Shown here piece after piece: positions 15,378-63,596 of a stretch of DNA of 64,000 nucleotides (within the stretch, counting starts at the first letter, position 1; every line of letters begins with the position of its first letter). The notes beneath the pieces were generated by a model. It searched no databases, was not told the DNA's origin, and saw only the letters and a program-made list of their open reading frames with translations. A program made the translations under genes and the position numbers. Location of the stretch: NCBI RefSeq assembly GCF_026151205.1, contig NC_087072.1, positions 23,205,603 through 23,269,602 on the forward strand, written 5' to 3'. Source of the stretch: Bolinopsis microptera. Lineage: Eukaryota > Ctenophora > Tentaculata > Lobata > Bolinopsidae.

Positions 15378-17438
15378 GTGCCTCTCTATACCGGGTACCT
15401 CTATTATATACTGTGCCTCTCTATACCGGGTACCTCTATTATATACCGTGCCTCTCTATACAGTGTACCTCTATTATATACCGTGTCTCTCTATACCGGG
15501 TACCTCTATTATATACCGTGCCTCTCTTTACCGAGTACCTCTATTATATACCGTGTCTCTCTATACAGTGTACCTGTATTATATACCGTGCCTCTCTATA
15601 CCGGGTACCTCTATTATATACCGTGTCTCTCTATACAGTGTACCTCTATTATATACCGTGTCTCCCTATACCGGGTACCTCTATTATATACCGTGTCTCT
15701 CTATACCGGGTACCTATATTATATACCGTGCCTCTCTATACCGGGTACCTCTATTATATACCGTGTCTCTCTATACCGGGTACCTTACAAGACATTTTTG
15801 TGGCGGACCAATTTGCGACGACCGAAATTTTGGCGGTCCGAAAATATGGCGAAATTGAACAAAAACCGTCACATTTCGGACGTCACAGAAAATTCTGACA
15901 CAAAGGAAATTCAAAATTTTCTAAAAATCGGTTAAATCATGTTGAAACAAAATGATTTCTTCATCTTCCTCTATACTTAAGGGGTCCGGCTCGACTCTTT
16001 CAGTTTCACGCTGTTCTCCAGTGTACTCCCAGGAGTAAGATTCTCGGATAAGCGTATTACTTGAAATTAAATTCATCATGGAATATTGTGTTTATTTGTC
16101 CCACCATCATTGATCATATCACTAACTTTTCAAGAACAAAATGAATCGATGAAGCCACAATTATTGGAATGAGCTAAAAATAATGAGACGGATTCTATTA
16201 CGACGACCGAAATTTTGGCGGTCCGAAAATATGGCGAAATTTCGGGCTATATTATATACCGTGCCTCTCTATACCGGGTACCTCTATTATATACCGTGTC
16301 TCTCTATACCGGGTACCTCTATTATATACCGTGTCTCTCTATACCGGGTACCTCTATTATATACCGTGTCTCTCTATACCGGGTACCTATATTATATACT
16401 GTGTCTCTCTATACCGGGTACCTCTATTATATACCGTGTCTCTCTATACCGGGTACCTATATTATATACCGTGCCTCTCTATACCGGGTACCTCTATTAT
16501 ATACCGTGTCTCTCTATACAGTGTACCTCTATTATATACCGTGTCTCTCTATACCGGGTACCTCTATTATATACCGTGTCTCTCTATACCGGGTACCTAT
16601 ATTATATACTGTGTCTCTCTATACCGGGTACCTCTATTATATACCGTGCCTCTCTATACAGTGTACCTCTATTATATACCGTGCCTCTCTATACAGTGTA
16701 CCTCTATTATATACCGTGCCTCTCTATACAGTGTACCTCTATTATATACCGTGCCTCTCAGCTCTATACCGGGTACCTCTATTATATACCGTGCCTCTCT
16801 ATACCGGGTACCTCTATTATATACCGTGTCTCTCTATACCGGGTACCTCTATTATATACCATGTCTCTCAATACAGTGTACCTCTATTATATACCGTGTC
16901 TCTCTATACCGGCCACCGGGTACCTCTATTATATACCGTGCCTCTCTATACCGGGTACCTCTATTATATACCGTGCCTCTCTATACCGGGTACCTCTATT
17001 ATATACCGTGCCTCTCTATACAGTGTACCTCTATTTTATACCGTGCCTCTCTATACAGGGTACATCTATTATATACCGTGCCTCTCTATACAGTGTACCT
17101 CTATTTTATACCGTGCCTCTCTATACCGGGTACCTCTATTATATACCGTGCCTCTCTATACAGTGTACCTCTATTTTATACCGTGCCTCTCTATACAGGG
17201 TACCTCTATTATATACCGTGCCTCTCTATACAGTGTACCTCTATTTTATACCGTGCCTCTCTATACCGGGTACCTCTATTATATACCGTGCCTCTCTATA
17301 CCGAGTACCTCTATTATATACCGTGTCTCTCTATACGGCTATACCGGGTACCTCTATTATATACCGTGCCTCTGTAAACCAGGTACCTCTATATACCGTG
17401 CCTCTGTAAACCAGGTACCTCTATATACCGTGCCTCTT
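15378..17438. repeat. 35-bp tandem array, two blocks
   Basis: Unit ACCGGGTACCTCTATTATAT plus ACCGTGYCTCTCTAT (35 bp), with variants CAGTGTACC and CTATTTTATA. Block 1 (15378-15782) has about 12 copies; block 2 (16248-17438) has about 34. All three plus frames stay open because 35 is not a multiple of three and the unit has no stop. I do not call a protein. Confidence 0.95.
15783..16246. mobile_element. TA-type MITE (copy 1) inserted in the 35-bp array
   Basis: The left end CCTTACAAGACATTTTTGTG is preceded by TA. Its subterminal block CGACGACCGAAATTTTGGCG recurs near the right side. It matches the complete copy at 50975-51553 in inverted orientation; the right terminus is lost here, where the 35-bp array resumes. 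Non-coding. Confidence 0.8.
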
Positions 17439-17836
17439 TATCATATATTATTGGAAGGCAGTAAAATTTTCAGCGATTCCTTACCCTTAATTGTGATCTG
17501 TAGAGATTGTAAAGGCTCTTTAATGTCCTGCTGTCTTGTCCCATGTGTTTCTTATACGCCTGTTTGGTGGTACTGTTTGGATCATTACGTTAACAATTTG
17601 GTTGGTCTCCAGATCAAATTACATAGTTATTGGTAATATCTTGAAAGGTTAGTAGTAGTTATTATAATATTGGCCAGGTAAGATCTTGAAAGGTAAGATC
17701 TGCTACAAACAATTTTGATCTTTATTGGAATTTTAAATTCCGCTGGTGGAAATAATGAACTGAAAATAATTATCGGAAAAACAGCGCAGCACAAATAATC
17801 ATGCTGCAGAAAAATTAGAGTATTTGTGACTCTGAC

Positions 17837-17995
17837 CTGTATGAGTTGCTGTAGAGTTGGTCTCTCTTCCACGGCAGACTTTGTCATGTCGACCAACAAA
17901 TTCTGTAAAGTCCTGCTAAGAACAGGCTCTTCCGCCTCAATAAGCCCATAGTCAGCACAGTACCACAGACAGGCTCCTACTGAGAACACTGCTCC
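17837..17995 (-). CDS. KIND gene exon 17, C-terminal half of KIND domain 2
   Basis: 159 nt, phase 0 to phase 0. The acceptor is TGTTTACCCAG at 17996 and the donor CATACAG|gtcaga at 17836. It encodes 53 residues: GAVFSVGACLWYCADYGL, an EEPVLSRTLQNLL segment and ERPTLQQLIQ at the end. This matches the KIND pattern (YSLG..LY.AADYGL, EPVLSP.LE.LL, ERPTL) and exon 3 of the same gene. In KIND proteins this half is the kinase C-lobe-like helical core. Its acceptor and first 45 nt are the seed of the neighbouring 58-bp array. Confidence 0.9.
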
Positions 17996-19368
17996 CTGGG
18001 TAAACATGGTCAGCACAGTACCACAGACAGGCTACTACTGAGAACACTACTGCCTGGGTAAACATAGCCAGCACAGTACCACAGACAGGCTCCTACTGAG
18101 AACACTACTGCCTGGGTAAACATAGCCAGCACAGTACCACAGACAGGCTCCTACTGAGAACACTACTGCCTGGGTAAACATGGTCAGCACAGTACCACAG
18201 ACAGGCTCCTACTGAGAACACTACTGCCTGGGTAAACATAGTCAGCACAGTACCACAGACAGGCTCCTACTGACAACACTACTGCCTGGGTAAACATAGT
18301 CAGCACAGTACCACAGACAGGCTCCTACTGAGAACACTACTGCCTGGGTAAACATAGTCAGCACAGTACCACAGACAGGCTCCTACTGAGAACACTACTG
18401 CCTGGGTAAACATGGTCAGCACAGTACCACAGACAGGCTCCTACTGAGAACACTACTCCCTGGGTAAACATAGTCAGCACAGTACCACAGACAGGCTCCT
18501 ACTGAGAACACTACTGCCTGGGTAAACATAGTCAGCACAGTACCACAGACAGGCTACTACTGAGAACACTACTGCCTGGTTAAACATAGTCAGCACAGTA
18601 CCACAGACAGGCTCCTACTGAGAACACTAATGCCTGGGTAAACATAGTCAGCACAGTACCACAGACAGGCTCCTACTGAGAACACTACTGCCTGGGTAAA
18701 CATAGTCAGCACAGTACCACAGACAGGCTCCTACTGAGAACACTACTGCCTGGGTAAACATAGTCAGCACAGTACCACAGACAGGCTCCTACTGAGAACA
18801 CTACTGCCTGGGTAAACATAGTCAGCACAGTACCACAGACAGGCTCCTACTGAGAACACTAATGCCTGGGTAAACATAGTCAGCACAGTACCACAGACAG
18901 GCTACTACTGAGAACACTACTGCCTGGTTAAACATAGTCAGCACAGTACCACAGACAGGCTCCTACTGAGAACACTAATGCCTGGGTAAACATAGTCAGC
19001 ACAGTACCACAGACAGGCTCCTACTAACAACACTACTGCCTGGGTAAACATAGCCAGCACAGTACCACAGACAGGCTCCTACTGAGAACACTACTGCCTG
19101 GGTAAACATAGTCAGCACAATACCACAGACAAGCTCCTACTGAGAACACTACTGCCTGGGTAAACATAGTCAACACAGTACCACAGACAGGCTCCTACTG
19201 AGAACACTAATGCCTGGGTAAACATAGTCAGCACAGTACCACAGACAGGCTCCTACTAACAACACTACTGCCTGGGTAAACATAGTCAGCACAGTACCAC
19301 AGACAGGCTCCTACTGAGAACACTACTGCCTGGGTAAACATAGTCAGCACAGTACCACAGACATTGCT
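17951..19368. repeat. 58-bp tandem array copied from the exon 17 splice acceptor
   Basis: About 24 units of 58 bp. On the minus strand each unit reads TATGTTTACCCAG, then an exon 17-like start (GCAGTAGTGTTCTCAGTAGG), and ends GTACTGTGCTGAC. The unit nearest the gene is the real acceptor plus 45 nt of exon 17. The other units differ mainly in the first bases after the AG. The 58-bp length breaks the reading frame, so using an upstream copy would run into TGA. Confidence 0.95.
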
Positions 19369-19377
19369 ACATGTAGT

Positions 19378-20157
19378 CAGTTCTGCTCCATGTAGTCAGC
19401 TCAGTACTGCTCCATGTAGTCAGCTCAGTACTGCTCCTTGTAGTCAGCTCATTACTACTCCCTGTAGTCAGCTCAGTACTGCTCCCTGTAGTCAGCTCAG
19501 TACTGCTCCCTTAATTCAGCTCAATACTGCTCCATGTAGTCAGCTCAGTACTGCTCCCTGTAGTCAGCTCAGTACTACTCCCTGTAGTCAGCTCAGTACT
19601 ACTCCCTGTATTCAGCTCAGTACTGCTCCCTGTATTCAGCTCAGTACTGCTCCCTGTATTCAGCTCAATACTGCTCCCTGTAGTCAGCTCAGTACTGCTC
19701 CCTATATTCAGCTCAATACTGCTCCCTGTAGTCAGCTCAGTACTGCTCCCTGTAGTCAGCTCAGTACTATTCCCTGTATTCAGCTCAATACTGCTCCCTG
19801 TAATCAGCTCAGTACTGCTCCCTGTAGTCAGCTCAGTACTGCTCCCTATATTCAGCTCAATACTGCTCCCTGTAGTCAGCTCAGTACTGCTCCCTGTAGT
19901 CAGCTCAGTACTATTCCCTGTATTCAGCTCAATACTGCTCCCTGTAATCAGCTCAGTACTGCTCCCTGTAGTCAGCTCAGTACTGCTCCCTATATTCAGC
20001 TCAATACTGCTCCCTGTAATCAGCTCAGTACTGCTCCCTATATTCAGCTCAATACTGCTCCCTGTAATCAGCTCAGTACTATTCCCTGTATTCAGCTCAG
20101 TACTGCTCTCTGTAGTCAGCTCAGTACTGCTCACTGTATTCAGCTTAGTACTGCTGT
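19378..20157. repeat. 24-bp tandem array
   Basis: About 32 copies of CAGCTCAGTACTGCTCCCTG+TAGT with TAGT/TATT/TAAT and AGT/AAT variants. Both strands stay open (SQLSTAPC-like on plus) because 24 is a multiple of three and no stop occurs. With no splice signals or start context I treat the open frames as by-products. Confidence 0.95.
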
Positions 20158-20482
20158 TTGTTAAAAGTAGTTCCTAGTATCAAATTACATTTCTCGATTA
20201 TTATAACTGGCTCAGGTTTCCTTACTACTGCGATGAGTCTGCTTCCTTGTTCCTTTAGCATTTCCAATTTTCTGAGTTACTACTTAGAATACATTATTAA
20301 TAGTATTAGTGTAGCCCGGCCTCATTCGATAATATTGTATAAACAGTTTTAATATTTTTATGTGGGATGTTGTCGTCAAATTAGCGTTAACTGTTCCCTA
20401 TTAAACACTATAAAACATATCACCATGAGAAAGTAAGGCTATGTGATCTAGACTGCAATAAAGGGATTGCAACTACAATAAT

Positions 20483-21890
20483 AATTGTTAATGCGGTACA
20501 CCCTGTATGATGTTGCAATCTTGCAACTAGATAATTGTTAATGCGGTACACCCTGTATGATATTGCAATATTGCAACTAGATAATTGTTAATGCGGTACA
20601 CCCTGTATAGTGTATGATATTGCAATCTTGCAACTAGATAATTGTTAATGCGGTACACCCTGTATGATATTGCAATCTTGCAACTAGATAATTGTTAATG
20701 CGGTACACCCTGTATGATATTGCAATCTTGCAACTAGGCTTTTTACTTTCTATACAGGACTGGATAGTCTTCAGACAGTTTTAAAGCTTATTTTTAGTGC
20801 AAGAGTTGGTTGCTAGGCATTGCATTTATCTAAGCAGCGCCTGTATTCAATAATTAATGAAATCTTATTAGCGGATTTAGGTATATAATTATTGTATATA
20901 TTATTGTATGTATAAATTCTTGAGTAAACATTAACCAGTAAACAAAGCTGGTTCCCAATCAGATAATTGTGATGTTGATGCGGTACATCCTGTATGTTGT
21001 TGCAATCTTGCAACTAGATAATTGTGATGTTAATGCGGTACATCCTGTATGATATTGCAATCTTGCAACTAGATAATTGTTAATGCGGTACACCCTGTAT
21101 GATATTGCAATCTTGCAAGTTGATAATTGTGATGTTAATGCGGTACACCCTGTATGATATTGCAATCTTGCAACTAGATAATTGTTAATGCGGTACACCC
21201 TGTATGATATTGCAATCTTGCAAGTAGATAATTGTGATGTTAATGCGGTACACCCTGTATGATGTTGCAATCTTGCAGCTAGATAATTGTTAATGTGGTA
21301 CACCCTGTATGATATTGCAATCTTGCAACTAGATAATTGTGATGTTAATGCGGTACACCCTGTATGATGTTGCAATCTTGCAGCTAGATAATTGTTGATG
21401 TGGTACACCCTGTATGATATTGCAATCTTGCAACTAGATAATTGTTAATGCGGTACAGTGTACACCCTGTATGATATTGCAATCTTGCAAGTAGATAATT
21501 GTTAATGTGGTACACCCTGTATGATATTGCAATCTTGCAACTAGATAATTGTTAATGTGGTACACCCTGTATGATATTGCAATCTTGCAACTAGATAATT
21601 GTGATGTTGATGCGGTACACCCTGTATGTTGTTGCAATCTTGCAACTAGATAATTATTAATGCGGTACACCCTGTATGATGTTGCAATCTTGCAATTAGA
21701 TAATTGTTGATGTGGTACACCCTGTATGTTGTTGCAATCTTGCAACTAGATAATTGTGATGTTGATGCGGTACACCCTGTATGTTGTTGCAATCTTGCAA
21801 CTAGATAATTATTAATGCGGTACACCCTGTATGATGTTGCAATCTTGCAACTAGATAATTGTTAATGCGGTACACCCTGTATGTTGCTGC
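20483..21890. repeat. 50-59-bp tandem array, two blocks
   Basis: The core unit is GCGGTACACCCTGTATGATA, TTGCAATCTTGCAACTAG, ATAATTGTTAAT (50 bp); some units have an extra TGATGT. Block 1 (about 20483-20738) has about five units; block 2 (about 20958-21890) has about 17. The sequence between them (20739-20957) is unrelated. No gene is seen in 20158-22248. Confidence 0.95.
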
Positions 21891-22688
21891 AATCCAGCGA
21901 ACTACTCACTTTGCTTTCTTTGCATACATTTTTAAGAATATTCAAAGTAATCAATTAATGCAAAATGATTTTTGATCCAGGTTTAAATAACTTAACTACT
22001 CATATAGAAATGTATCAAAAACTTCGATATAATTAGCTGGCAGCAGTAAATTAGATACAATTAGTTTTGTCGAGTTATCACTAATAAACGCACGGGTTAC
22101 ACTAGTCACTAATACTGCCGCGATAGGAAATGATAGCTAAAATGTTTACTGCAATATTCACAACTTGTGCATGGTAAATTGTATGTACATCGCGGTTTTA
22201 TACAATAATTGCACTGTAGAGTGTACAATTTATATTAGATGTGAACATTTAACTAATAACAACTCTTATTTTGTTTGTAGTTTAACTTATTTTGTTTGTA
22301 GTTTAACTAATAACAACTCTTATTTTGTTTGTAGTTTAACTAATAACAACTTTTATTTTGTTTGTAGTTTAACTAATAACAACACTTATTTTGTTTGCAG
22401 TTTAACTAATAACAACACTTATTTTGTTTGCAGTTTAACTAATAACAACTTTTATTTTGTTTGTAGTTTAACTAATAATAACTCTTATTTTGTTTGTAGT
22501 TTAACTAATAACAACATTTATTTTGTTTGTAGTTTAACTAATAACAACTCTTATTTTGTTTGTAGTTTAACTAATAACAAAACTTATTTTGTTTGTAGTT
22601 TAACTAATAACAAAACTTATTTTGTTTGTAGTTTAACTAATAACAACTTTTATTTTGAGTGGAGTTGGGTTAGAAACATATAAGAGAT

Positions 22689-22738
22689 ACGACGATTTAA
22701 CTTGTAGAAGCTTTCAATAAACATGTGTTAATCGTCGT
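22689..22738. other. Stem-loop in the PLE 3' UTR
   Basis: ACGACGATTTAAC (22689-22701) pairs with GTTAATCGTCGT (22727-22738), a 12-bp stem with one bulged T and a 25-nt loop. It lies between the stop codon and the end of the element. It could mark the 3' end for the element's own RT, but I see no hammerhead core. Confidence 0.6.
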
Positions 22739-22863
22739 CAGCTGAATGTGATGGGGTGGACAATGCTTATATCATTGTATATGTGATTGAGTGGTGTCAG
22801 GGATGGAGGGTGGGGGAGGTGTGGGTGGGAAAGTGAAAATTACAGTACAATGTCAATAAAAAT

Positions 22864-23778
22864 TTAGTCTTCTGTTGAGGTTGAGAAGGAAATGCCAGAT
22901 GGTCTGGACTTTAAGGATTTGGCAATTTTAGGAAGAATGGGGTCCCAGAGGGAACTACATTTGGGTGCGCGGTCTGTTCTGTTCATGGCTGGTTGTCGTA
23001 TTTGTATAGCAGCGTGTTCTGTGAGGTCAAGTTGGGAGCGTGAGGTGAGGGATTTGAGGACTTCGATGTTGTTCCAGGAGATGGTGTGGCCGGTGGTCAG
23101 GGCATGATGTGCAGGGGCTGATTTGATTCTGTCTGTGGATTCGTCGATGGCGTTGTTGAGTCTGTAACATCGTTCGTGTTCTTTCATGCGGTGAATCAAG
23201 GGTCTGTAGGTCTGTCCGGTGTATTTGGAGGGGCACTGTGAGCAGGAAATTTCGTAGATGGTGTTGGGAGTGAGGTGAGTAGGGGGTGTGGTCTTCGTTT
23301 TGGTGAGGAGGTTGCGGAGGGAGGTAGCAGAGGAGTGGGTAACTTTGATGTCGTGTTGTCCGAGTATCTTGGAGATGGGTTTGGATAGGGAGGGATGGAA
23401 AGGAAGAGAAACACTAAGGGCATGTTCACGGGTCTGTCGGTTGAATGAGGCTAGGGATTGGTGGCGAGAGGGGTTGGTGAATTTCCGTTGTACTTCGTCC
23501 ATGATGGTGGTGATGCGGTGAGGAGGGAAGCCGTTCTGGAGGCAAACGTGTCGTACTGTCTGGAGTTCGTCGTCAAGGTGTTGGGGTGAGCAGATGTTGT
23601 GGGCTCTTCTGGTCAGTGATCGGATGACTGCGTTCTTAGATGAGTTGGTGGTGCAGGAGGAGTACTTGGTGTAGAGGTTGGTGTGGGTGGGTTTTCTATA
23701 GACTGATGTGGATTTGTCAGGGTGGATGAGATCGTCAAGGAAGGGTATAGTTCCGTCTGTAGAGGGATGTTCTTGGGT
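22864..23778 (-). pseudogene. PLE polyprotein fragment: RT C-terminus plus GIY-YIG endonuclease
   Basis: The open frame starts at the truncation point. It has the late RT motif IPFLDDLIHPDKSTSVYRKP followed by THTNLY, a helical linker (RRAHNIC, NGFPPHRI), then the GIY-YIG region: TIYEISCSQCPSKYTGQTYR and LIHRMKEHE, as in Penelope-family proteins. Reverse transcriptase plus GIY-YIG nuclease is the defining PLE architecture and serves target-primed integration. The RT catalytic core is missing, so this copy cannot move by itself. It ends at TAA 22864-22866. Confidence 0.9.
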
Positions 23779-23899
23779 AACTTTTATTTTGTTTGTAGTT
23801 TAACTAATAACAACTTTTATTTTGTTTGTAGTTTAACTAATAACAACTCTTATTTTGTTTGTAGTTTAACTTATAACAACACTTATTTTTGTTTGTAGG

Positions 23900-24409
23900 G
23901 GTTTACACAAAATATATATGTTTGCGTCATCGACCTGTTTATAAAAATATAAAAGCTGATATTAATTGCAGTTTTTTACCTGCTCTTCAAGCTTGCAGAC
24001 TGTGTCATTCTTTTTCAGCTTTTCTTTGCCTGGAATTGTAAAGTTAACATCGTAATTTCAAGCAGACATGCCTTAAAAATGTGCAAAAATGAAACCTGAA
24101 TAGAAATGCAAAAGTAAAAGTGAAAGTGAAGGACAACAGAACTATGCAGCGCGGAAACACACTACTTGTAGATGGGCAACAAGGAGTGAGTAATGTTTAA
24201 TATGAGGGGGGGGGGGGGGGGGGGGGGGGAGGCCGGAGGGGGTAATATGATATTACCGAACTTTATTTCAACGGATATTAATTGGACACTGAAGGCTCTA
24301 ACATTCATTTTAATGTCCGTTCAAATAAATTCTGCCCGTTTCAAGTCAAAAATCCGTTCAAAATTGTTCCCAAAATTATTCCACTACGTACTTATTGTAC
24401 AATATACAG
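23900..24409. other. No gene seen; G-rich homopolymer tract
   Basis: A run of about 22 G near 24207-24229 and flanking AT-rich DNA. No exon or RNA gene is supported. The G run may be the end of another poly-G-terminated repeat. Confidence 0.5.
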
Positions 24410-25159: not shown

Positions 25160-25425
25160 AGGGAGAGGGAGAGGGAGAGGGAGAGGGAAAGGTACTCAGT
25201 ACCGACTAACAGACTGGTACCCAGTACTGACTAACAGACTGGTACCAGTCTGTTAGTCAGTACTGAGTACCAGTCTGTTAGTCAGTACTGAGTACCAGTC
25301 TGTACCGACCAACAGACAGGTACTCAGTACTGACTAACAGACTGGTACTCAGTACTGACTAACAGACCGGTACTCAGTACCGACTAACGGACTGGTACTC
25401 AGTACCGACTAACAGACTGGTACTT
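25160..25425. repeat. GGGAGA microsatellite and inverted tandem repeat upstream of the channel gene
   Basis: GGGAGA is repeated about five times (25160-25188). It is followed by about ten units of CAGTACTGACTAACAGACTG+GTACT. Two or three central units are inverted (CAGTCTGTTAGTCAGTACTG), giving perfect local palindromes. This array ends about 50 bp before the channel start codon. Confidence 0.9.
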
Positions 25426-25477
25426 AGTGATCATCACTACGAGGGTTGTTTAATAGTTGTTAACTTATTTTCTCTAG

Positions 25478-27547
25478 ATGCCGACCCTCTGCTACACGAC
25501 CCCGTTCCAGTACGGAGCTCAAGTCAGGACCTTCCAAGATTACAGGATCCACGAGTACATAGACGAGCAGAAACTATCCCTCTTCAGATCACCTTTTGAC
25601 TCACCGTATCCTAAGATAGACGTGGACTTGAAATACTTTAAGATAGTGTGTGAGGATGCAGAAGATAAGAACAAAGGAGATATAAATGGCCAGACAGCAC
25701 TGCATGCTATGTGCCTGTACGGATCTGTCAACTCTCTGAAGATCCTTCTAGAAGCGGGATCAGATCTGGGATGTGAGGACCTTGCTGGCTTCTCGGTAGC
25801 TCACTATTGCACCATGTCAGACAGAGCGGACTTGCTGTCTTATCTAGATAGAAATGGTGTGTCGATCACTAAACAAGCTCTTACCACAAGCAGGACGCCA
25901 CTCCACGTGGCTAGCATTTGTAACAGTGTCCAGTGTGTCAAGTACCTGCTGGAGTCTGGAGTTAACTGTAATCAGGTTGATAACTTTGGTTACTCTCCCC
26001 TATGGCTCGCTCTTTACTATGGTAACGATAAAATCTGTCAGCTGCTGTCCCAACACGGGGCCCAAATAAATCTCAACGAAGTGGACAAAGTATGCTTCGT
26101 GTTCCGGACAGTTGAAAAGAGCACAGAGTTTGGAACGTGGTTGCTGGATTCCTATATCACTACTTGTAAGTACAGGGGTGTGTCCTGTGTGTGGCTCAAC
26201 AACTTTGTGAACGGGGTTTCTTACGAGAGTACGGACTTATCACACCCTTATCTCTACCTCGCCTCTCTAAAACAGCAGGTCATTGATCACCCCGTCATCA
26301 GAGCCTATACTCGAGCAGCTTGGCAATACTTTGGCAGAAAATCTGCAGTCTTGAACGTAGTTACCTATTTCACATTTAGTCTCCTGTGGACTCTCCATTT
26401 CTTGTCCGATAACGGGAAAACGTTTAGAGATAAGAGCAATGTGGGGAGGATAATAACCTTCTCTTTACTCCTTCCTTACGCTGGGTTAATGATATATTAC
26501 CTGGTGGTGAAGATAAGGTGTATTTACAGGAAACAAGTGGATTGCATTCTGTTCGAGATGAGACTGGTAGATAAGGAACTGGATAATATACATCCTTGTA
26601 TGTGGCGAGCTTATCTAGTGCTGCTACGAGACAAGAGGGGACTCGCTCTCAAGTTAGATCAGCTCAAGATTGGGAAGGTGCTTGTGCAGCAGGTTAACGA
26701 GCTGGTTGTAATGTTATTGACGGTTATTATTCTGGTTCTAGACCTGGTGATGACAGTGGCTAGTGAGGAGGAAGAAAGAAGACAGGAGATTAATGTAGCG
26801 TACATTGTGATCAGTAGTTGCGTCTTAGTCCTGGTCTGGCTGAACACCCTCTTCAAGCTCCGTTACTTTCGAGAGTTTGGAACTTTCCTCGTCTCTGTAA
26901 AGAGACTCGCCAGTCTTCTTCTTAAATTCTCTGTAATGTTTATATTTTTCTACATTCCCATAGCCTGCGTGTTTTGGAAAACAATCTACCAAAGTACAGA
27001 CGTACCCCACGTGACGCCCCACGTGACACCCCACGTGACAGCCACTGTTGATAATACTACGATAGTCACCTTCCCTGATGCTTTCTACAGAGTATACCGC
27101 ATGACCTTTAGTGACTACACGTACAGTGATGGGCTAAAGATAGCGGCTAAACAAGGTCTGCCCGCCTGGTGGAACATTCTGACCTTCTACTGGCTGACAG
27201 TGGGCGGGCTCATCTTACTCAAGATCTTAGGAGCTATGGTATTTTCAGCCCTGTCTCAACCTCTCAACCAGGCCCTCCTTATAGCGTACACAGAGCGACT
27301 TCGCTACATCTGCGAATTGGTAATGAACCAGAGCAGTTCTAGCAGACAGGACTTCGCCAGATTCCTCGAAATGGAGTGTAAACCCTACGTGAGTGAAGGG
27401 GAGCTTATCAGGGATGTTAGGACGGCGGAGAGGGAGGTGGAGATGGAGATGGAGAGGATTAATCAGCGCCTCAATCACCTTTCTGATCACGTGTTCCAGA
27501 GCGCGGCAGAACGGTCCGTGAGTTCTAGCTCTGGTTTGAATATTTAA
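25478..27547 (+). CDS. TRP-like cation channel with ankyrin repeats, single coding exon
   Basis: 689 residues from ATG 25478. Ankyrin repeats lie at about 70-102, 103-135, 138-169 and 170-203 (GQTALHAMCLYGSVNSLKIL, RTPLHVASICNSVQCVKYLL). Six membrane segments follow at about 290-309, 326-346, 408-428, 437-459, 478-500 and 564-590. A pore-helix-like segment AFYRVYRMTFSDYTY (about 535-549) lies before the last. A charged helical tail (about 641-672) may be a coiled coil. This order is that of TRP channels; TRPA/TRPV-like is possible but I cannot place it. Unusual points are a 60-residue S2-S3 linker and a thrice-repeated HVTP in the S5-pore loop. The ATG directly follows acceptor-like TTATTTTCTCTAG, suggesting a 5' UTR intron, a missed first exon or spliced-leader addition. 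It is nested in intron 16 of the KIND gene on the other strand. Confidence 0.85.
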   Translation: MPTLCYTTPFQYGAQVRTFQDYRIHEYIDEQKLSLFRSPFDSPYPKIDVDLKYFKIVCEDAEDKNKGDINGQTALHAMCLYGSVNSLKILLEAGSDLGCEDLAGFSVAHYCTMSDRADLLSYLDRNGVSITKQALTTSRTPLHVASICNSVQCVKYLLESGVNCNQVDNFGYSPLWLALYYGNDKICQLLSQHGAQINLNEVDKVCFVFRTVEKSTEFGTWLLDSYITTCKYRGVSCVWLNNFVNGVSYESTDLSHPYLYLASLKQQVIDHPVIRAYTRAAWQYFGRKSAVLNVVTYFTFSLLWTLHFLSDNGKTFRDKSNVGRIITFSLLLPYAGLMIYYLVVKIRCIYRKQVDCILFEMRLVDKELDNIHPCMWRAYLVLLRDKRGLALKLDQLKIGKVLVQQVNELVVMLLTVIILVLDLVMTVASEEEERRQEINVAYIVISSCVLVLVWLNTLFKLRYFREFGTFLVSVKRLASLLLKFSVMFIFFYIPIACVFWKTIYQSTDVPHVTPHVTPHVTATVDNTTIVTFPDAFYRVYRMTFSDYTYSDGLKIAAKQGLPAWWNILTFYWLTVGGLILLKILGAMVFSALSQPLNQALLIAYTERLRYICELVMNQSSSSRQDFARFLEMECKPYVSEGELIRDVRTAEREVEMEMERINQRLNHLSDHVFQSAAERSVSSSSGLNI

Positions 27548-27957: not shown

Positions 27958-28537
27958 AGCCTGAATTTTCCTCCAAAGTATTAGTATTATTTTTTTAACT
28001 AATCCAAAAACATAAATAACTGTACGTTCCTATTGTTTGATTTTAATATTGACTTATATAAGTAGTATAGTAACAAATCTCCCTCCAGGTATACTACTTA
28101 TATTTATATAGTAACTATACTACTTATATTCATTGTGTTGTGTTGATAACTATACTACTTATATTCATTGTGTTGATAATCAATTTTTGATTCTTTAATT
28201 TACTTTCATTTGGATATTATGTTTTCACATGAGAAAATTGAGATTTAAATCAATTGTTGTCTTTGATCCACTGCAATCCCCCCAAAAATACATGGTATGT
28301 ATGGTATCTTTGATGCAATTAGTTACGACTAGCATAATTTTTTCGACCGCCGAAAAGAAACAAGCGCGTCACGCAGTACGCGTATACACATGGCTATGTG
28401 AAATTGTAGCGTAGTATATTGCGCAATGAAACAATTGCTCAATGTCATAAGTTTTTCACGAACAACTGTTCACACACACACCTGTTCGCGAACAGGGGTC
28501 GGGTTATCTGGATACTGCCATAAATTGCTGTACTGAC
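27958..28537. other. No exon seen; short repeats
   Basis: ACTATACTACTTATATTCAT is repeated three times at about 28110-28170. The rest is AT-rich intron 16 sequence of the minus-strand gene. Confidence 0.5.
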
Positions 28538-28647
28538 CTTTCTATTCAGTAACAGGTATTTGTACTGACCTTCACTTTCAGTAAGAGGTATGTGAACGAG
28601 TCCGTTGCTGTCGACACTGATCATCGTGGGGTTCAAAGTAGGGTAAC
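28538..28647 (-). CDS. KIND gene exon 16, middle of KIND domain 2
   Basis: The acceptor is CATTGTAG at 28648. The first two bases complete a Gly codon with exon 15. It reads GYPTLNPTMISVDSNGLVHI, then PLTESEG..YKYLLLNRK, and donates at AGAAAG|gtcagt (28537) in phase 0, as exon 17 needs. A second, nearly identical donor (GTGAAG|gtcagt) lies 32 nt earlier at 28569. It would shift frame and hit a stop in exon 17. The TMISVDSNGLVHI segment parallels the TVFLGTEGNIKIDI part of KIND1. Confidence 0.8.
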
Positions 28648-28662
28648 CTACAATGATTCATA

Positions 28663-28893
28663 ATTTAGTGAGAAGACATTGCTTTATTTAGTGAAAAGAC
28701 AGTGCTTTATTTAGTGAGAAGACATTGCTTTATTTAGTGAGAAGACTGCTTTATTTACAATTTAGTGAGAAGACATTGCTTTATTTAATGAGAAGACTGC
28801 TTTATTTAGTGAGAAGACAGTGCTTTATTTAGTGAGAAGACAGTGCTTTATTTAGTGAGAAGACATTGCTTTATTTAGTGAGAAGATTCAGCG
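28663..28893. repeat. About 24-bp tandem array
   Basis: About nine units of TTTAGTGAGAAGACATTGCT+TTAT between exons 15 and 16, with some units shortened. No coding role is seen. Confidence 0.9.
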
Positions 28894-28915: not shown

Positions 28916-29021
28916 CTTCAGTTGATTGGAGTGATTTTGCTGTTCCAAGAAGTAGTAGCCACAGTTCGTTCTCGTCTAATGGTCTGTCCAGCACTTTCAT
29001 GAGCTCCTCCACATTTACCAT
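28916..29021 (-). CDS. KIND gene exon 15, start of KIND domain 2
   Basis: The acceptor is GTCTGTTTACAG and the donor AACTGAAG|gtaaaa. It enters in phase 0 at an internal ATG and encodes MVNVEELMKVLDRPLDENEL, then WLLLLGTAKSLQSTE. It aligns with exon 1 (EFTLEEIVGLIKGPLNDEDL), the N-terminal helix of the KIND fold. It leaves in phase 1 to exon 16. Confidence 0.85.
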
Positions 29022-31261: not shown

Positions 31262-34037
31262 CTCCCTATGGCTCCCTGTAGTGGTTCCCTATAGTGGCTC
31301 CCTATAGTGGCTCCCTATAGTGGCTCCCTATAGTGGCTCCCTATAGTGGCTCCCTATAGTGGCTCCCTATAATGGCTCCCTATAGTGGCTCCCTATAGTG
31401 GCTCCCTATAGTGGCTCCCTATAGTGGCTCCCTATAGTGGCTCCCTATAGTGGCTCCCTATAGTGGCTCCCTATAGTGGCTCCCTATAGTGGCTCCCTAT
31501 AGTGGCTCCCTATAGTGGCTCCCTATAGTGGCTCCCTATAGTGGCTCCCTATAGTGGCTCCCTATAGTGGCTCCCTATAGTGGCTCCCTATAGTGGCTCC
31601 CTATAGTGGCTCCCTATAGTGGCTCCCTATAGTGGCTCCCTATAGTGGCTCCCTATAGTGGCTCCCTATAGTGGCTCCCTATAGTGGCTCCCTATAGTGG
31701 CTCCCTATAGTGGCTCCCTATAGTGGCTCCCTATAGTGGCTCCCTATAGTGGCTCCCTATAGTGGCTCCATATAGTGGCTCCCTATAGTGGCTCCCTATA
31801 GTGGCTCCCTATAGTGGCTCCCTATAGTGGCTCCCTATAGTGGCTCCCTATAGTGGCTCCCTATAGTGGCTCCCTATAGTGGCTCCCTATAGTGGCTCCC
31901 TATAGTGGCTCCCTATAGTGGCTCCCTATAGTGGCTCCCTATAGTGGCTCCCTATAGTGGCTCCCTATAGTGGCTCCCTATAGTGGCTCCCTATAGTGGC
32001 TCCCTATAGTGGCTCCCTATAGTGGCTCCCTATAGTGGCTCCCTATAGTGGCTCCCTATAGTGGCTCCCTATAGTGGCTCCCTATAGTGGCTCCCTATAG
32101 TGGCTCCCTATAGTGGCTCCCTATAGTGGCTCCCTATAGTGGCTCCCTATAGTGGCTCCCTATAGTGGCTCCCTATAGTGGCTCCCTATAGTGGCTCCCT
32201 ATAGTGGCTCCCTATAGTGGCTCCCTATAGTGGCTCCCTATAGTGGCTCCCTATAGTGGCTCCCTATAGTGGCTCCCTATAGTGGCTCCCTATAGTGGCT
32301 CCCTATAGTGGCTCCCTATAGTGGCTCCCTATAGTGGCTCCCTATAGTGGCTCCCTATAGTGGCTCCCTATAGTGGCTCCCTATAGTGGCTCCCTATAGT
32401 GGCTCCCTATAGTGGCTCCCTATAGTGGCTCCCTATAGTGGCTCCCTATAGTGGCTCCCTATAGTGGCTCCCTATAGTGGCTCCCTATAGTGGCTCCCTA
32501 TAGTGGCTCCCTATAGTGGCTCCCTATAGTGGCTCCCTATAGTGGCTCCCTATAGTGGCTCCCTATAGTGGCTCCCTATAGTGGCTCCCTATAGTGGCTC
32601 CCTATAGTGGCTCCCTATAGTGGCTCCCTATAGTGGCTCCCTATAGTGGCTCCCTATAGTGGCTCCCTATAGTGGCTCCCTATAGTGGCTCCCTATAGTG
32701 GCTCCCTATAGTGGCTCCCTATAGTGGCTCCCTATAGTGGCTCCCTATAGTGGCTCCCTATAGTGGCTCCCTATAGTGGCTCCCTATAGTGGCTCCCTAT
32801 AGTGGCTCCCTATAGTGGCTCCCTATAGTGGCTCCCTATAGTGGCTCCCTATAGTGGCTCCCTATAGTGGCTCCCTATAGTGGCTCCCTATAGTGGCTCC
32901 CTATAGTGGCTCCCTATAGTGGCTCCCTATAGTGGCTCCCTATAGTGGCTCCCTATAGTGGCTCCCTATAGTGGCTCCCTATAGTGGCTCCCTATAGTGG
33001 CTCCCTATAGTGGCTCCCTATAGTGGCTCCCTATAGTGGCTCCCTATAGTGGCTCCCTATAGTGGCTCCCTATAGTGGCTCCCTATAGTGGCTCCCTATA
33101 GTGGCTCCCTATAGTGGCTCCCTATAGTGGCTCCCTATAGTGGCTCCCTATAGTGGCTCCCTATAGTGGCTCCCTATAGTGGCTCCCTATAGTGGCTCCC
33201 TATAGTGGCTCCCTATAGTGGCTCCCTATAGTGGCTCCCTATAGTGGCTCCCTATAGTGGCTCCCTATAGTGGCTCCCTATAGTGGCTCCCTATAGTGGC
33301 TCCCTATAGTGGCTCCCTATAGTGGCTCCCTATAGTGGCTCCCTATAGTGGCTCCCTATAGTGGCTCCCTATAGTGGCTCCCTATAGTGGCTCCCTATAG
33401 TGGCTCCCTATAGTGGCTCCCTATAGTGGCTCCCTATAGTGGCTCCCTATAGTGGCTCCCTATAGTGGCTCCCTATAGTGGCTCCCTATAGTGGCTCCCT
33501 ATAGTGGCTCCCTATAGTGGCTCCCTATAGTGGCTCCCTATAGTGGCTCCCTATAGTGGCTCCCTATAGTGGCTCCCTATAGTGGCTCCCTATAGTGGCT
33601 CCCTATAGTGGCTCCCTATAGTGGCTCCCTATAGTGGCTCCCTATAGTGGCTCCCTATAGTGGCTCCCTATAGTGGCTCCCTATAGTGGCTCCCTATAGT
33701 GGCTCCCTATAGTGGCTCCCTATAGTGGCTCCCTATAGTGGCTCCCTATAGTGGCTCCCTATAGTGGCTCCGTATAGTGGCTCCCTACTCCCTATAGTGG
33801 CTCCCTATAGTGGCTCCCTATAGTGGCTCCCTATAGTGGCTCCCTATAGTGGCTCCCTATAGTGGCTCCCTATAGTGGCTCCCTATAGTGGCTCCCTATA
33901 GTGGCTCCCTATAGTGGCTCCCTATAGTGGCTCCCTATAGTGGCTCCCTATAGTGGCTCCCTATAGTGGCTCCCTATAGTGGCTCCCTATAGTGGCTCCC
34001 TATAGTGGCTCCCTATAGTGGCTCCCTTTACTGGCTC
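31262..34037. repeat. 13-bp satellite array, about 213 copies
   Basis: GGCTCCCTATAGT is repeated over about 2.77 kb with only a handful of variant units (for example near 31370, 31767, 33770 and a partial unit near 33787). A small remnant (GCTCCATATAGTGGCTCTC) sits at about 34555. Every frame contains stops. It lies in intron 14 of the KIND gene. Confidence 0.98.
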
Positions 34038-36310: not shown

Positions 36311-36527
36311 CGTTAGATTTCATTCGTTTGTATCGGCTGGAGGGGCTCCATTTCTGTTTCCCTGTCTCCGTAATGGTAACATCTGGTAAATCAGCCTGAA
36401 CAGTAATGGTAAGATCTGGTAAATCAGCCTGAACAGTAATCGTAAGATCTGGTAAATCAGCCTGAACAGTAATCGTAAGATCTGGTAAATCAGCCTGAAC
36501 AGTAATGGTAACATTTGGTAAATCAGC
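36311..36527 (-). CDS. KIND gene exon 11 with five 11-residue repeats
   Basis: 217 nt, phase 0 in, phase 1 out; donor ATCTAACG|gtaatt. The first 55 residues are five copies of ADLPDLTITVQ (33 bp each), then ETGKQKWSPSSRYKRMKSN. Each DNA unit begins TTCAG|GCTGAT, so every repeat carries its own acceptor-like AG in the same phase. The exact 3' splice site could be any of them; I chose the first. Confidence 0.75.
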
Positions 36528-36663
36528 CTGAGCCCTGAACAGTATCATGATTCGTATCGATTCTCGTATACTTATTGAAACTATCTGAAGAACATATAGT
36601 ATTTATACTGTTGAAACCTTAATAATTCCATTTCTACTAAATTCGGGGTTTACAATTACTAAC

Positions 36664-38643
36664 CGGTTTTATTTGGGGATCATTTAAGAGTCGTTTCATT
36701 TGATCCTGCCTAGCCGTTTCCGTTACCTCCTCTTGCAACTCCAGGTGGTAATAAGTATTTGTGATCTCGCTGTCTCTACTGGTCTCTAAAATAGTCTCTA
36801 GGCCTGTCTCCACTGAGATTTCCAGAGATGTCTCTAAAGGTCTTCTCTCAGGTGAAGTGAGCTGAGACTCTGTTGAGTCTAACTCAGGGGGATCAAGTTG
36901 AACAGCGATTTTAAAACTAGTATTCATGTTTGTCAGATCTGCAATTCCTTTCTTTGGGATTACTGGTACTGGTACTGGCATGGGGAATTGAAGAGGTTCT
37001 GGTATCTTGCAGGGATCTACGGTTGTTTGCCCTGCTTGTTCTAATAGCTGACAGGATTCTTTAGGAATGGCATGGTCAGTGATTATTTGGGGCGCCTCTG
37101 GGTGGGCTACAAAATCATCAACCTTACTATCTTCTTGAGTTTGTTGGGTTTTTATAACCTCAGACTGTTCAATAAGTTTAGTGTTTTTGATCGGCTCCAA
37201 GTCATTATCTTGCAGGGTACTTTTAGGCTCGACACTTTCTGTCGATTCCGGGACCACATCTGCGGTATCTAGCTTTGGTGACCCGATAGATAGAATTCTC
37301 TCGCTCCGCTTAAATCCTGAATCAACTAGATCCTTCCTGGGGACCATGACCGGTTCTAGATCCTTCCTGGGGACCATGACCGGTTCAAGATCCTTCCTGG
37401 GGACCATGACCGGTTCTAGATCATTCCTGGGGACCATGACCGGTTCAAGATCCTTGCTGGGGACCATGACCGGTTCAAGATCCTTCCTGGGGACCATGAC
37501 CGGTTCAATATCTTTCCTGGGGACCATGACCGGTTCTAGATCATTCCTGGGGACCATGACCGGTTCAAGATCCTTCCTGGGGACCATGACCAGTTCAAGA
37601 TTCTTCCTGGGGACCATGACCGGTTCAAGATCCTTTCTGGGGACCATGACCGGTTCAAGATCCTTCCTGGGGACCATGACCGGTTCAATATCTTTCCTGG
37701 GGACCATGACCGGTTCAAGATTCTTCCTGGGGACCATGACCGGTTCAATATCTTTCCTGGGGACCATGACCGGTTCAATATCCTTCCTGGGGACCATGAC
37801 CGGTTCAAGATCCTTCCTGGGGACCATGACCGGTTCAAGATCCTTCCTGGGGACCATGACCGGTTCAATATCTTTCCTGGGGACCATGACCGGTTCAAGA
37901 TCCTTTCTGGGGACCATGACCGGTTCAAAATCCTTCCAGGGGACCATGACCGGTTCAAGATCCTTCATGGGGACCATGACCGGTTCAAGATCCTTCCTGG
38001 GGACCATGACCGGTTCAAAATGTTCAAGCACTTCTTCATTCGAGTCTTTTTTTGAAGGATTCTTTGCAGCTGGCAGATTTTTCTTAATTTTTCCAGACTT
38101 TGTGTCGATTGCGCTGGTTGATTTTCTTCTCGTAGCCGGAGTACCTCGTGCTCCAGATATCGGAGGAAGTGAAACCTTCCGTTTAGGAAAAATGTTCACT
38201 TTATTTTCAGGAATTGTCTTCATATTCGGTTTTGTCGACGACACTTTCTTCAGTATAGAAACTGTAGGAGCAGGTTTAGAAACTGTAGGAGCAGGTTTAG
38301 AAACTGTAGGAGCAGGTTTAGAAACTTTAGGAGCAGGTTTAGCAACTTTAGGAGCAGGTTTAGAAACTTTAGGAGCAGATTTAGAAACTGTGGGAGCAGG
38401 TTTAGAAACTGTAGGAGCAGGTTTAGAAACTGTAGGAGCAGGTTTAGAAACTGTAGGAACAGGTTTAGAAACTGTAGGAGCAGGTTTAGTTAGAGACGGT
38501 GTGGAACCTGAACCTTTTCTTTTGATAACCGGGGAAGCGGTAGACGACTTACTGGCGGAGGTTTTGTTTCCCTTAACTGTGGCACTTGTTGTTGCAGATG
38601 GTTTTTCTTTTGGAGTGATAGTCTTCTGGATTTTCGTGCTTCC
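36664..38643 (-). CDS. KIND gene exon 10, 660-codon linker with two coding minisatellites
   Basis: The acceptor is GGGCTATTCAG at 38644 and the donor ATAAAACCG|gttagt at 36663; exactly 660 codons, phase 0 both sides, no stops. The order is a Lys/Ser/Thr/Pro-rich start (STKIQKTITPKEKPS); eleven KPAPTVS heptads (38258-38488); a basic stretch (NIFPKRKVSLPPISG, PATRRKSTSAIDTKSGKIKK); 23 decapeptides LEPVMVPRKD (37331-38020); and an acidic Ser/Thr/Glu-rich tail to VTETARQDQMKRLLNDPQIK. It looks intrinsically disordered and basic, possibly cytoskeleton-binding (inference only). Two long open frames on the other strand are shadows of the repeats. Confidence 0.9.
37331..38020 (-). repeat. Coding minisatellite: 23 x 30 bp
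   Basis: Each unit encodes LEPVMVPRKD. Substitutions are mostly at the first position (L/I/F) and in the RKD triplet (RND, RKN, MKD, WKD, SKD). The period keeps frame, so copy-number change alters linker length in steps of ten residues. Confidence 0.98.
38258..38488 (-). repeat. Coding minisatellite: 11 x 21 bp
   Basis: Eleven units encode KPAPTVS heptads with variants KPAPKVS, KSAPKVS, KPAPKVA and KPVPTVS. Like the 30-bp array it preserves frame. Confidence 0.95.
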
Positions 38644-46891: not shown

Positions 46892-48665
46892 CCCAGGAAA
46901 AGTTACCGGCTGGTGGTGGTACTAGAGTTGGTTTAATTTAAACAGACGGCTCGACCTCGCGCGCAACAACAAGCATGATTTGCACGCGTGGCGTATTCCA
47001 ATGTTCAAGCAGCTACCACGTGACACAATTCAGCCAACCAGAGTACAGGAATCCGCAAAGTTAAAGTTGCAAACTTTTGATCGGCCCGAAAGGGGACTTT
47101 TCTGGAGATTTTGAGATAACTCATTAATTACGTTGTCTTGAATTTTCCTCCTGGAGAGGTAACGTTACTTTTAAAAGAGGAACATGTTACAAAAAACCGG
47201 AAGTCTCCAACTCTTTTACTTTCAAAGTTAAGCCCCATCCGGTCAGGGTTCCTGGGTGCAGCTGGCTGACGCCGAATAGGGTGTTTTGGCCGTTCTAACT
47301 TAAGACTTTTAAGAATTAAAGCAGCCGTATTGATCTTCCAAACCTACAACTTTCAAGGGCTAGAATTCGCTGTATTTTGCCGTTAAAACACAACTTGTAC
47401 TGTTTCACTTCATGATTGGGCCGTAATTCAAAAGCAAATTGGCAAGAAGTGGTGCTCACGGTCTCACTTAACGTCACTTATCGCTCAGTTAAGAGCGACC
47501 ATGGTCTTAAGCGACAAACAGCCTGCAGGCATATGATCCGAATACGAAATATCCTTGTGTTCGGCATTTAGTAGCCCTAATTGGTTACTTCGTATACCCA
47601 GGAAAAGTTACCGGCTGGTGGTGGTACTAGAGTTGGTTTAATTTAAACAGACGGCTCGACCTCGCGCGCAACAACAAGCATGATTTGCACGCGTGGCGTA
47701 TTCCAATGTTCAAGCAGCTACCACGTGACACAATTCAGCCAACCAGAGTACAGGAATCCGCAAAGTTAAAGTTGCAAACTTTTGATCGGCCCGAAAGGGG
47801 ACTTTTCTGGAGATTTTGAGATAACTCATTAATTACGTTGTCTTGAATTTTCCTCCTGGAGAGGTAACGTTACTTTTAAAAGAGGAACATGTTACAAAAA
47901 ACCGGAAGTCTCCAACTCTTTTACTTTCAAAGTTAAGCCCCATCCGGTCAGGGTTCCTGGGTGCAGCTGGCTGACGCCGAATAGGGTGTTTTGGCCGTTC
48001 TAACTTAAGACTTTTAAGAATTAAAGCAGCCGTATTGATCTTCCAAACCTACAACTTTCAAGGGCTAGAATTCGCTGTATTTTGCCGTTAAAACACAACT
48101 TGTACTGTTTCACTTCATGATTGGGCCGTAATTCAAAAGCAAATTGGCAAGAAGTGGTGCTCACGGTCTCACTTAACGTCACTTATCGCTCAGTTAAGAG
48201 CGACCATGGTCTTAAGCGACAAACAGCCTGCAGGCATATGATCCGAATACGAAATATCCTTGTGTTCGGCATTTAGTAGCCCTAATTGGTTACTTCGTAT
48301 ACCCAGGAAAAGTTACCGGCTGGTGGTGGTACTAGAGTTGGTTTAATTTAAACAGACGGCTCGACCTCGCGCGCAACAACAAGCATGATTTGCACGCGTG
48401 GCGTATTCCAATGTTCAAGCAGCTACCACGTGACACAATTCAGCCAACCAGAGTACAGGAATCCGCAAAGTTAAAGTTGCAAACTTTTGATCGGCCCGAA
48501 AGGGGACTTTTCTGGAGATTTTGAGATAACTCATTAATTACGTTGTCTTGAATTTTCCTCCTGGAGAGGTAACGTTACTTTTAAAAGAGGAACATGTTAC
48601 AAAAAACCGGAAGTCTCCAACTCTTTTACTTTCAAAGTTAAGCCCCATCCGGTCAGGGTTCCTGG
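46892..48665. repeat. 705-bp tandem repeat, 2.5 copies, apparently identical
   Basis: CCCAGGAAAAGTTACCGGCT begins copies at 46892, 47597 and 48302, exactly 705 bp apart. The third copy stops at about 48665 (GGTCAGGGTTCCTGGG). By eye the copies are identical. No coding frame. Confidence 0.95.
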
Positions 48666-48670
48666 GATGG

Positions 48671-48900
48671 GCAAAAAACAGTTTTGGTCACGTGACAAGC
48701 TAGTAAAACATGAATTTGATTGTTTATGGCTCGGGTTAGGGTTAGGGTTAGGGTTAGGGTTGTGGTAAGGGTTATGGATAGTTTCAGGGTTATGGTAAGG
48801 GTTAGGGTTGGGATTAGGGTTTATGTAAAACCGTTTTGTACGGCTGCAAAACCATAAAAACCAAAGTCACGTGAAATTTTTGGGCGAACGAATTAGTGTT
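48671..48900. mobile_element. Repeat element fragment with TTAGGG-like core
   Basis: TGGTCACGTGAC at the left and AAAGTCACGTGAAATTTTTG at the right are inverted. Between them GGGTTA is repeated (about five perfect units at 48733-48762, then degenerate ones). It matches 11626-11760 in inverted orientation. Confidence 0.7.
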
Positions 48901-53794: not shown

Positions 53795-53944
53795 CTGTGA
53801 AACTATTTCCAGAGTTGGTCTGTCAGTAGGTGAAGCGTTCATCATTTCAGACATAAGATTCTCCAACATCTGATCTCTATCTCTCTTTGGCGATTTTGAC
53901 TTTGCTAGCCACAGCAAAACTGTTCCAATTGCATATATGTGATT
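53795..53944 (-). CDS. KIND gene exon 3, C-terminal half of KIND domain 1
   Basis: The acceptor is ACTTCAATTTCAG and the donor GTTTCACAG|gtttta; 50 codons, phase 0 both sides. It reads NHIYAIGTVLLWLAKSKSPK and ends SPTDRPTLEIVSQ. It matches exon 17 position by position (YAIG..LLWLA against FSVG..LWYCA; DRPTLEIVSQ against ERPTLQQLIQ) with the same boundaries and phases. Confidence 0.9.
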
Positions 53945-62590: not shown

Positions 62591-62645
62591 TATAAAGCTT
62601 TTTAGCTCATTCACCCGAGTAGTTACATATTTCGTGTGACCAGTA

Positions 62646-62933
62646 TGGTGGCTCAGACCCGCCACTGAAAAAAAGACCTGCCACTAAGAAAAACCAATGT
62701 CAATTTTAAAACAATGGCGGATATAAGCCAAGGCAGCTGAAGACGATTTACACACGTATTTTGAAAGCTCCTGCTAAAACAAACTTTTTATATCTCTTAT
62801 ATGTTTTTAAAAAATCCCCCTCCAGCTCCAGGTTTAAGCTATGAAATTCCAATTCAATATCAAAATATAAATTGATTTGACATTGGGTTTTTTCGCAAAT
62901 CAATTTTAAAACGGTGGCGAGTCTGAGCCACCA
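62646..62933. mobile_element. TA-flanked 288-bp MITE
   Basis: TGGTGGCTCAGAC at the left and GTCTGAGCCACCA at the right are inverted copies, continuing inwards as CCGCCAC / GTGGCGA. TA flanks both sides (62644-62645, 62934-62935). The open frames across it are not called. Confidence 0.85.
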
Positions 62934-63116: not shown

Positions 63117-63406
63117 GAATATATAGTAGCAGGTAATAATGTATAGTAGCATGTAATAATGTATAGTAGCAGGTAATAATGTACCTGTGTATAAAACAGC
63201 GTTAAACTATAATATGGGGGGGGGGGGGCAACCTCATTTATGTATATTTATGAGGTTGCCCCCCCCCCGCCCCCCTATTGTACCTATGCCCCCCCCCCCC
63301 CTATTGTACCTATGGGCTATGTCCCCGCCCCCCCACCTATTGTACCTATGCCCCCCCCCCCCTATTGTACCTATGGGCTATGTCCCCGCCCCCCCCCCCC
63401 CCCCAC
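63117..63406. repeat. 20-bp repeat and C/G homopolymer cluster
   Basis: ATAGTAGCAGGTAATAATGT is repeated three to four times (63117-63182). It is followed by G and C runs with CCTATTGTACCTATG and GGGCTATGTCCCCGCCCC units (63217-63406). The last unit touches the donor of exon 1. Confidence 0.9.
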
Positions 63407-63415
63407 CTATTGTAC

Positions 63416-63596
63416 CTATGTCGATCTTGATGTTCCCTTCAGTCCCCAGGAACACAGTTTCCCTGGTGATGATAATGTTACGAGACTGGTCTAGTGTGAG
63501 AACTGCTAGACACATCTTCTCACAGATAGCGTACAGGTCCTCGTCATTGAGGGGCCCCTTTATCAGGCCCACTATCTCCTCTAATGTAAACTCCAT
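63416..63596 (-). CDS. KIND gene exon 1, start of KIND domain 1
   Basis: From ATG 63596, 181 nt, donor GACATAG|gtacaa. It encodes MEFTLEEIVGLIKGPLNDED, a helix (YAICEKMCLAVLTL) and RETVFLGTEGNIKIDI, the N-terminal part of a KIND domain (pattern L.EIL.....P.....LWA.C...C). It is possible that this is not the first exon: CACTACTAG just upstream is acceptor-like. A 17-bp duplicate of the ATG region (TAATGTAAACTCCATCA on plus) lies at about 63623-63639. Confidence 0.85.

Follow-up and report, generated by a model that had tools for sequence, protein, structure and literature searches.

A 58-bp minisatellite with the structure of a mirage array spans an intron-exon junction of a predicted KIND-domain gene in the ctenophore Bolinopsis microptera

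Tandem arrays that span an exon-intron boundary and carry splice signals in their units have been described in amphioxus as mirage minisatellites. The available portions of two reports (PMC3087553, PMC3902484) place them in the globin genes BflGb6 and BflGb9 and in Adh3, with both 5' and 3' boundaries affected and with concerted evolution of the repeats. As excerpted, the first of these reports states that many units hold AG or GT signals and that haplotypes vary in copy number; Adh3 data and reverse transcription PCR (RT-PCR) of globin transcripts suggest there that mirages leave regular splicing in amphioxus undisturbed (PMC3087553). Similar repeats are carried by lancelet PGBD5 and troponin C, according to the available part of PMC3902484. 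Here we describe an array of this kind in the ctenophore Bolinopsis microptera, the genome of which is given in the accessible text as 13 chromosome-scale scaffolds with a k-mer size of about 254 Mbp (PMC10232365); for Hormiphora, another ctenophore, the corresponding excerpt has 13% of the genome called by Tandem Repeats Finder (TRF; PMC8527503). The stretch analyzed, referred to as the window, comprises 64,000 nucleotides (nt) of contig NC_087072.1 (23,205,603 to 23,269,602), and the array lies in a predicted minus-strand gene with two KIND domains, KIND1 and KIND2.

TRF reports the array at 17947-19363 on the minus strand, with period 58, 24.4 copies, 96% matches and 0% indels. The transcript enters it at 19363 and reads toward 17947, continuing into the exon. 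Read on that strand, the unit is made up of TTTACCCAG, the 9 nt of an intron end, and then of nt 1-49 of a KIND2 exon. The array spans an exon-intron boundary, as a mirage minisatellite does by definition, and the AG that serves as the splice signal is kept in 24/24 full units; by its structural features it fits among the mirage minisatellites. The original prediction, made from the sequence, that the satellite is assembled from intron end, AG and exon start is borne out by this alignment, and its division of the unit into 13 intronic and 45 exonic nt is just as acceptable, given the similarity of exon nt 46-49 (TATG) to the bases that precede TTTACCCAG. A search that tolerated up to 2 mismatches found the module GCTGACYATGTTTACCCAGG 24 times, with 0-1 mismatches seen, and found none in 100 shuffles. 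One of these modules is the real acceptor, which leaves 23 decoys. The real acceptor belongs to the final copy, so the array captures the authentic exon start at its edge. The prediction of about 24 decoys ahead of the real site was thus right as to order, the real one coming last, and slightly high as to number, the partial copy having no acceptor.

17947-19363, minus strand: 58-bp mirage-type array, 24 copies of TTTACCCAG plus 49 nt of exon, preceded on the 5' (high-coordinate) side by 25 nt of a partial copy
19339-19363, minus strand: partial copy, beginning within exon-derived sequence and without an acceptor (array alignment)
18053-18130, minus strand: acceptor modules of the two decoys closest to the exon (1 and 2), with CTGAC changed to CTGGC in both (module search)
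17996-18014, minus strand: module GCTGACCATGTTTACCCAG of the authentic acceptor, in which the branch-point-like CTGAC is contributed by the exonic portion of the copy before it

Among the 23 full decoy units, 11 of the 58 columns vary, some of them in shared blocks. By inspection, variants are common to units 10-11 and 16-17, and again to units 17-18 and 21-22; such sharing, judged by eye, may be a sign of unequal exchange. In a manual count, the columns of the splice elements (branch-point-like motif and acceptor) vary like the rest, at 3/14 versus 8/44, with neither excess nor deficit.

The identity of the exon follows from the gene model. The four KIND2 exons join through GT-AG junctions in phase into 131 open codons, which the Pfam KIND family (PF16474) matches at 39.6 bits (E 6.6e-10), above its gathering score of 26.7; the score falls to 29.6 bits when the 50-nt exon is left out. 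SPIRE1 KIND structures also match KIND2, at E 0.004, and KIND1 scores 26.3 bits, slightly under the gathering score.

17837-17995, minus strand: exon for the C-terminal part of KIND2, 159 nt, phase 0-0, its first 49 nt in the final array copy (Pfam KIND, gene model)
23980-24029, minus strand: KIND2 exon of 50 nt that the gene model splices to 17995
28570-28647, minus strand: KIND2 exon (gene model)
28916-29021, minus strand: first KIND2 exon (gene model)
53795-53944, minus strand: KIND1 paralogue of the 159-nt exon, with the same intron position and phase (paralogue alignment)
63416-63596, minus strand: KIND1 first exon, from its ATG (gene model)

The KIND1 and KIND2 paralogous exons start at the same alignment position and in the same phase (NHIYAIGT versus GAVFSVGA). 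The open KIND2 model, the Pfam match and this paralogous boundary together place the authentic acceptor between 17996 and 17995, at the end of an intron of 5,984 nt (23979-17996). The 159-nt exon keeps an intact frame of 53 codons and the KIND pattern, and is, on this homology, ancestral coding sequence. The reverse scenario, in which a satellite was exonized into the gene, is rejected, since KIND sequence makes up the exon and the boundary recurs in its paralogue. The two KIND domains suggest that the gene may be very-KIND (KNDC1), in which two KIND domains are followed by RasGEF; no RasGEF exon was noticed by eye in minus-strand open reading frames to 30 kb beyond the window, and no profile search was made.

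Decoys 1-23, numbered outward from the exon, show 0-2 differences from the real site over the 26 upstream nt. A branch-point-like CTGAC (a motif call), formed by codons of the exon copy before it, stands 15 nt before the exon in 19/23 decoys. Its A is kept in 20/23, being lost in decoys 1, 2 and 18, while decoy 20 has TTGAC. If used, decoys 1 and 2 would give exons of 217 and 275 nt, and the remaining A-bearing decoys exons of at least 333 nt. After the AG, the unit bases do depart from those of the real exon, as had been predicted: C stands at +2 in 22/23 decoys (G in the real exon) and T at +5 in 23/23 (C in the real exon), with G at +1 throughout; these bases may weaken the decoys, as had also been proposed. 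Each decoy had also been expected to cause a frameshift and an early TGA. The frameshift is borne out, and reading on from each decoy does reach a stop after 17-40 codons in 23/23; 18 of them, with the sequence read by eye, end after 33 codons at TGA, while TAG or TAA ends the remaining five. Concealment of the decoys by structured RNA is unsupported, four units folded as RNA being not unusually structured (z +1.08), and Rfam returned no family at gathering score within 17400-24200.

The partial unit at its far end joins the 58-bp array to a second, related and more diverged satellite.

19377-20155, minus strand: 24-bp satellite, 32.5 copies, 90% matches, minus-strand consensus GGAGCAGTACTGAGCTGACTACAG (TRF)

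This satellite aligns to the same boundary through two blocks, CAGGGAGCAGT exactly and GTACTGTGCTGACTA at 14/15, and is apparently the 58-bp unit with two internal deletions, a derivative of the same junction. Its local score against the boundary is 27.2, a value reached by 0 of 2,000 dinucleotide shuffles (maximum 21.8). The 14 other satellites of the window, taken in both orientations and each cut to 72 bases, score at most 18.8. That the likeness arose by chance in an unrelated satellite is very unlikely: one window satellite (25191-25428) does reach 18.8, but the true score lies above all shuffles and all other satellites, and the 24-bp satellite adjoins the array on the same strand with its blocks in the same order. 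Being more diverged, it is probably older than the 58-bp array. Since the branch-like A of its unit is as close as about 7 nt to the AG, these units should be poorer acceptors; three of them, tried as acceptors, ran into a stop after 5 codons. When the 264.65-Mb genome was searched with each satellite in turn, by a procedure that passes over simple repeats and very frequent words, the one match in either case was the satellite's own locus. A 13-bp satellite in an intron of the same gene (31269-34037; 213 copies, 99% matches) had seemed to resemble the acceptor and failed as a further relative, with scores of 7.1 and 10.9.

Duplicated junctions also occur elsewhere in the gene and, like the 24-bp satellite, go beyond the original prediction. 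In the list below, a slash marks the splice site.

28529-28591, minus strand: duplication of the donor GAAG/GTCAGTAC, 32 bp, 2 copies, the second 32 nt downstream of the donor at 28570 (TRF)
63274-63420, minus strand: KIND1 first-exon donor CATAG/GTACAATAGG with 4 further exact 15-nt copies in the intron (sequence search)
62615-62693, minus strand: putative KIND1 50-nt exon (62664-62615) and 19-bp duplication of its acceptor (62655-62693), the second copy 19 nt upstream (splice-site filter; TRF)

The putative KIND1 exon is the single candidate that passed the splice-site filter and is without independent support. To compare exon ends with background, the 20 nt around each end were matched against 250 nt on each side, and at least 15/20 identities were counted as a second copy. 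Such a copy was present at 4/21 exon ends (13 of the KIND gene and 8 of tankyrase), at 10.0% of 4,000 positions drawn at random from twenty 10-kb samples, and at 24.8% of 3,000 positions drawn likewise from the window. All four positive ends are from the KIND gene, versus 0/8 in tankyrase, the numbers being small. Leaving out the two ends of the putative KIND1 exon gives 3/19, and another count, in which the KIND1 first exon also contributed its start-codon end, gave 4/14. Set against these two backgrounds, 4/21 does not show that junctions are targeted; the idea of splice junctions as special repeat hotspots is unsupported, and tandem repeats are simply abundant in the window, where those of period at least 10 occupy 21%, versus 9.2% in a 200-kb sample. 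One tankyrase intron has a 22-bp array of 3.9 copies that begins at its first bases and repeats the donor GTTAGT (contig C1, 16808501-16813000, positions 580-665 of the reverse complement); this donor, seemingly amplified by eye, reached 12/20 in the same comparison and fell below the threshold. The short intron that separates the first and second KIND2 exons is largely taken up by a 23-bp satellite with the motif TCACTAAAT (28663-28886, minus strand), and the same motif also precedes the acceptor at 28647.

Taken together, these observations are probably best explained by a mirage minisatellite that grew from, and captured, an intron-exon junction and is tolerated, with splicing mainly at the exon-proximal site. 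The junction would have lain by chance where a tandem duplication struck, in a genome rich in minisatellites, and unequal exchange would then have expanded and homogenized the array. Most transcripts would still be joined to the exon-proximal acceptor, which exon definition, as generally understood, should favor by pairing it with the donor at 17836. RNAs spliced at decoys would be rare, would carry early stops and would be removed by nonsense-mediated decay. The array would be tolerated rather than used. Two points weigh against this account. Near-exclusive use of the final acceptor is not self-evident, because the decoys differ from it so little in the upstream sequence. In addition, protein searches gave nothing covering KIND2 (one returned 3 matches, all on a large downstream exon as judged by eye, and another had 0/1,068 candidates that cover KIND2), use of the exon being deduced from homology alone. 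A search of the genome itself with the PF16474 family found no match, nor did 14 controls.

The original prediction had left a choice between a splicing buffer or switch and a tolerated accident. As a functional buffer, the decoys would compete for the splicing machinery, and a share of transcripts that depends on copy number would end in nonsense-mediated decay, thereby setting gene output. Twenty-three near-identical sites, each leading to an early stop, are what such a device would need, and decoys 1 and 2, which would yield the shorter exons, are the ones next to the real site that lack the branch-point-like A, leaving as decoys those with the longer exons. This loss is suggestive; it was, however, noticed post hoc, concerns an A-to-G change in 3/23 decoys, and may represent one event in the two that are neighbors. 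Since the splice-element columns vary in the ordinary way, the folded units give no structural signal, and exon ends are not repeated significantly above background, the buffer finds no clear support and is unlikely. A length-tunable rheostat, in which copy number would set the share of transcripts lost to decoys and the A would have been lost by selection in the two nearest decoys, keeping the real site competitive under exon definition, is a speculation that we consider quite improbable. It is also doubtful that the array impairs the acceptor, with the 159-nt exon often skipped and the C-terminal part of KIND2 lost, or that the gene is decaying. Skipping would keep the frame because the exon is of phase 0-0, and the failure to find a homologous protein covering KIND2 suits this view, but the exon has kept its frame and its KIND pattern, and no sequence feature tested points to skipping. 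Finally, the copy number was read from one assembly only, and an assembly error could have made the length, or even the presence, of the array artefactual; variation in shared blocks among the decoy units and the partial unit linking the array to a diverged relative make this most improbable. A tolerated accident is the reading that fits best, and the available text of PMC3087553 supplies a published amphioxus precedent for it.

If complementary DNA were to show near-exclusive use of one among 24 near-identical acceptors, the locus would amount to a natural experiment on how the spliceosome chooses a 3' splice site where local sequence gives little information, with position, exon definition and kinetics as candidate cues. 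The two satellites from one junction also offer material for the study of intron growth.

Several other features of the window deserve mention. Within the KIND2 intron 28569-24030, on the opposite (plus) strand, a single open reading frame at 25478-27547 encodes an ankyrin-repeat protein (Pfam) that looks TRP-like on inspection and has a weak named match to the same effect; its closest relatives, at 74% and 55% identity, have uninformative names. A retroelement-like open reading frame on the minus strand (22864-23799) is flanked by the same 33-bp satellite on both sides (22286-22657 and 23779-23898), as if inserted into this array. It may be Penelope-like, and it matched no Pfam family above cut-off. 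Minus-strand open reading frames at about 46925-48690 recur every ~705 bp in three copies, a spacing beyond the TRF period limit, and an interstitial, telomere-like GGGTTA repeat follows at 48733-48821 (14.8 copies, 71% matches). Minisatellites of 33, 30 and 21 bp at 36370-38489 on the minus strand, all multiples of three and in long open frames, may be coding repeats of the same gene.

A limited literature search found no ctenophore mirage minisatellite. The present array, which by structure fits the class, suggests that such repeats are not confined to lancelets and that any genomic setting dense in minisatellites may give rise to them. Duplication carrying splice signals is also the point of likeness to the Rogers model, cited in the available text of PMC3087553, in which introns are gained through tandem duplication of AG/GT proto-splice sites. 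The ctenophore case is unlike that model in that its intron looks old, KIND1 and KIND2 sharing its position and phase, and no new intron is shown. With the amphioxus mirages, as described in the accessible text, it has in common a tandem array at an exon-intron boundary with splice signals in the units. The two differ in scale and in how they are known: the ctenophore unit is 58 bp, versus 150-160 bp in BflGb6, although it falls within the 10-72 bp cited for Adh3; one ctenophore boundary has given 24 copies and a further satellite of about 32 copies of 24 bp, whereas the BflGb6 haplotypes hold 6 and 3 units; and splicing was examined in amphioxus by RT-PCR, whereas the ctenophore array is known here from genome sequence.
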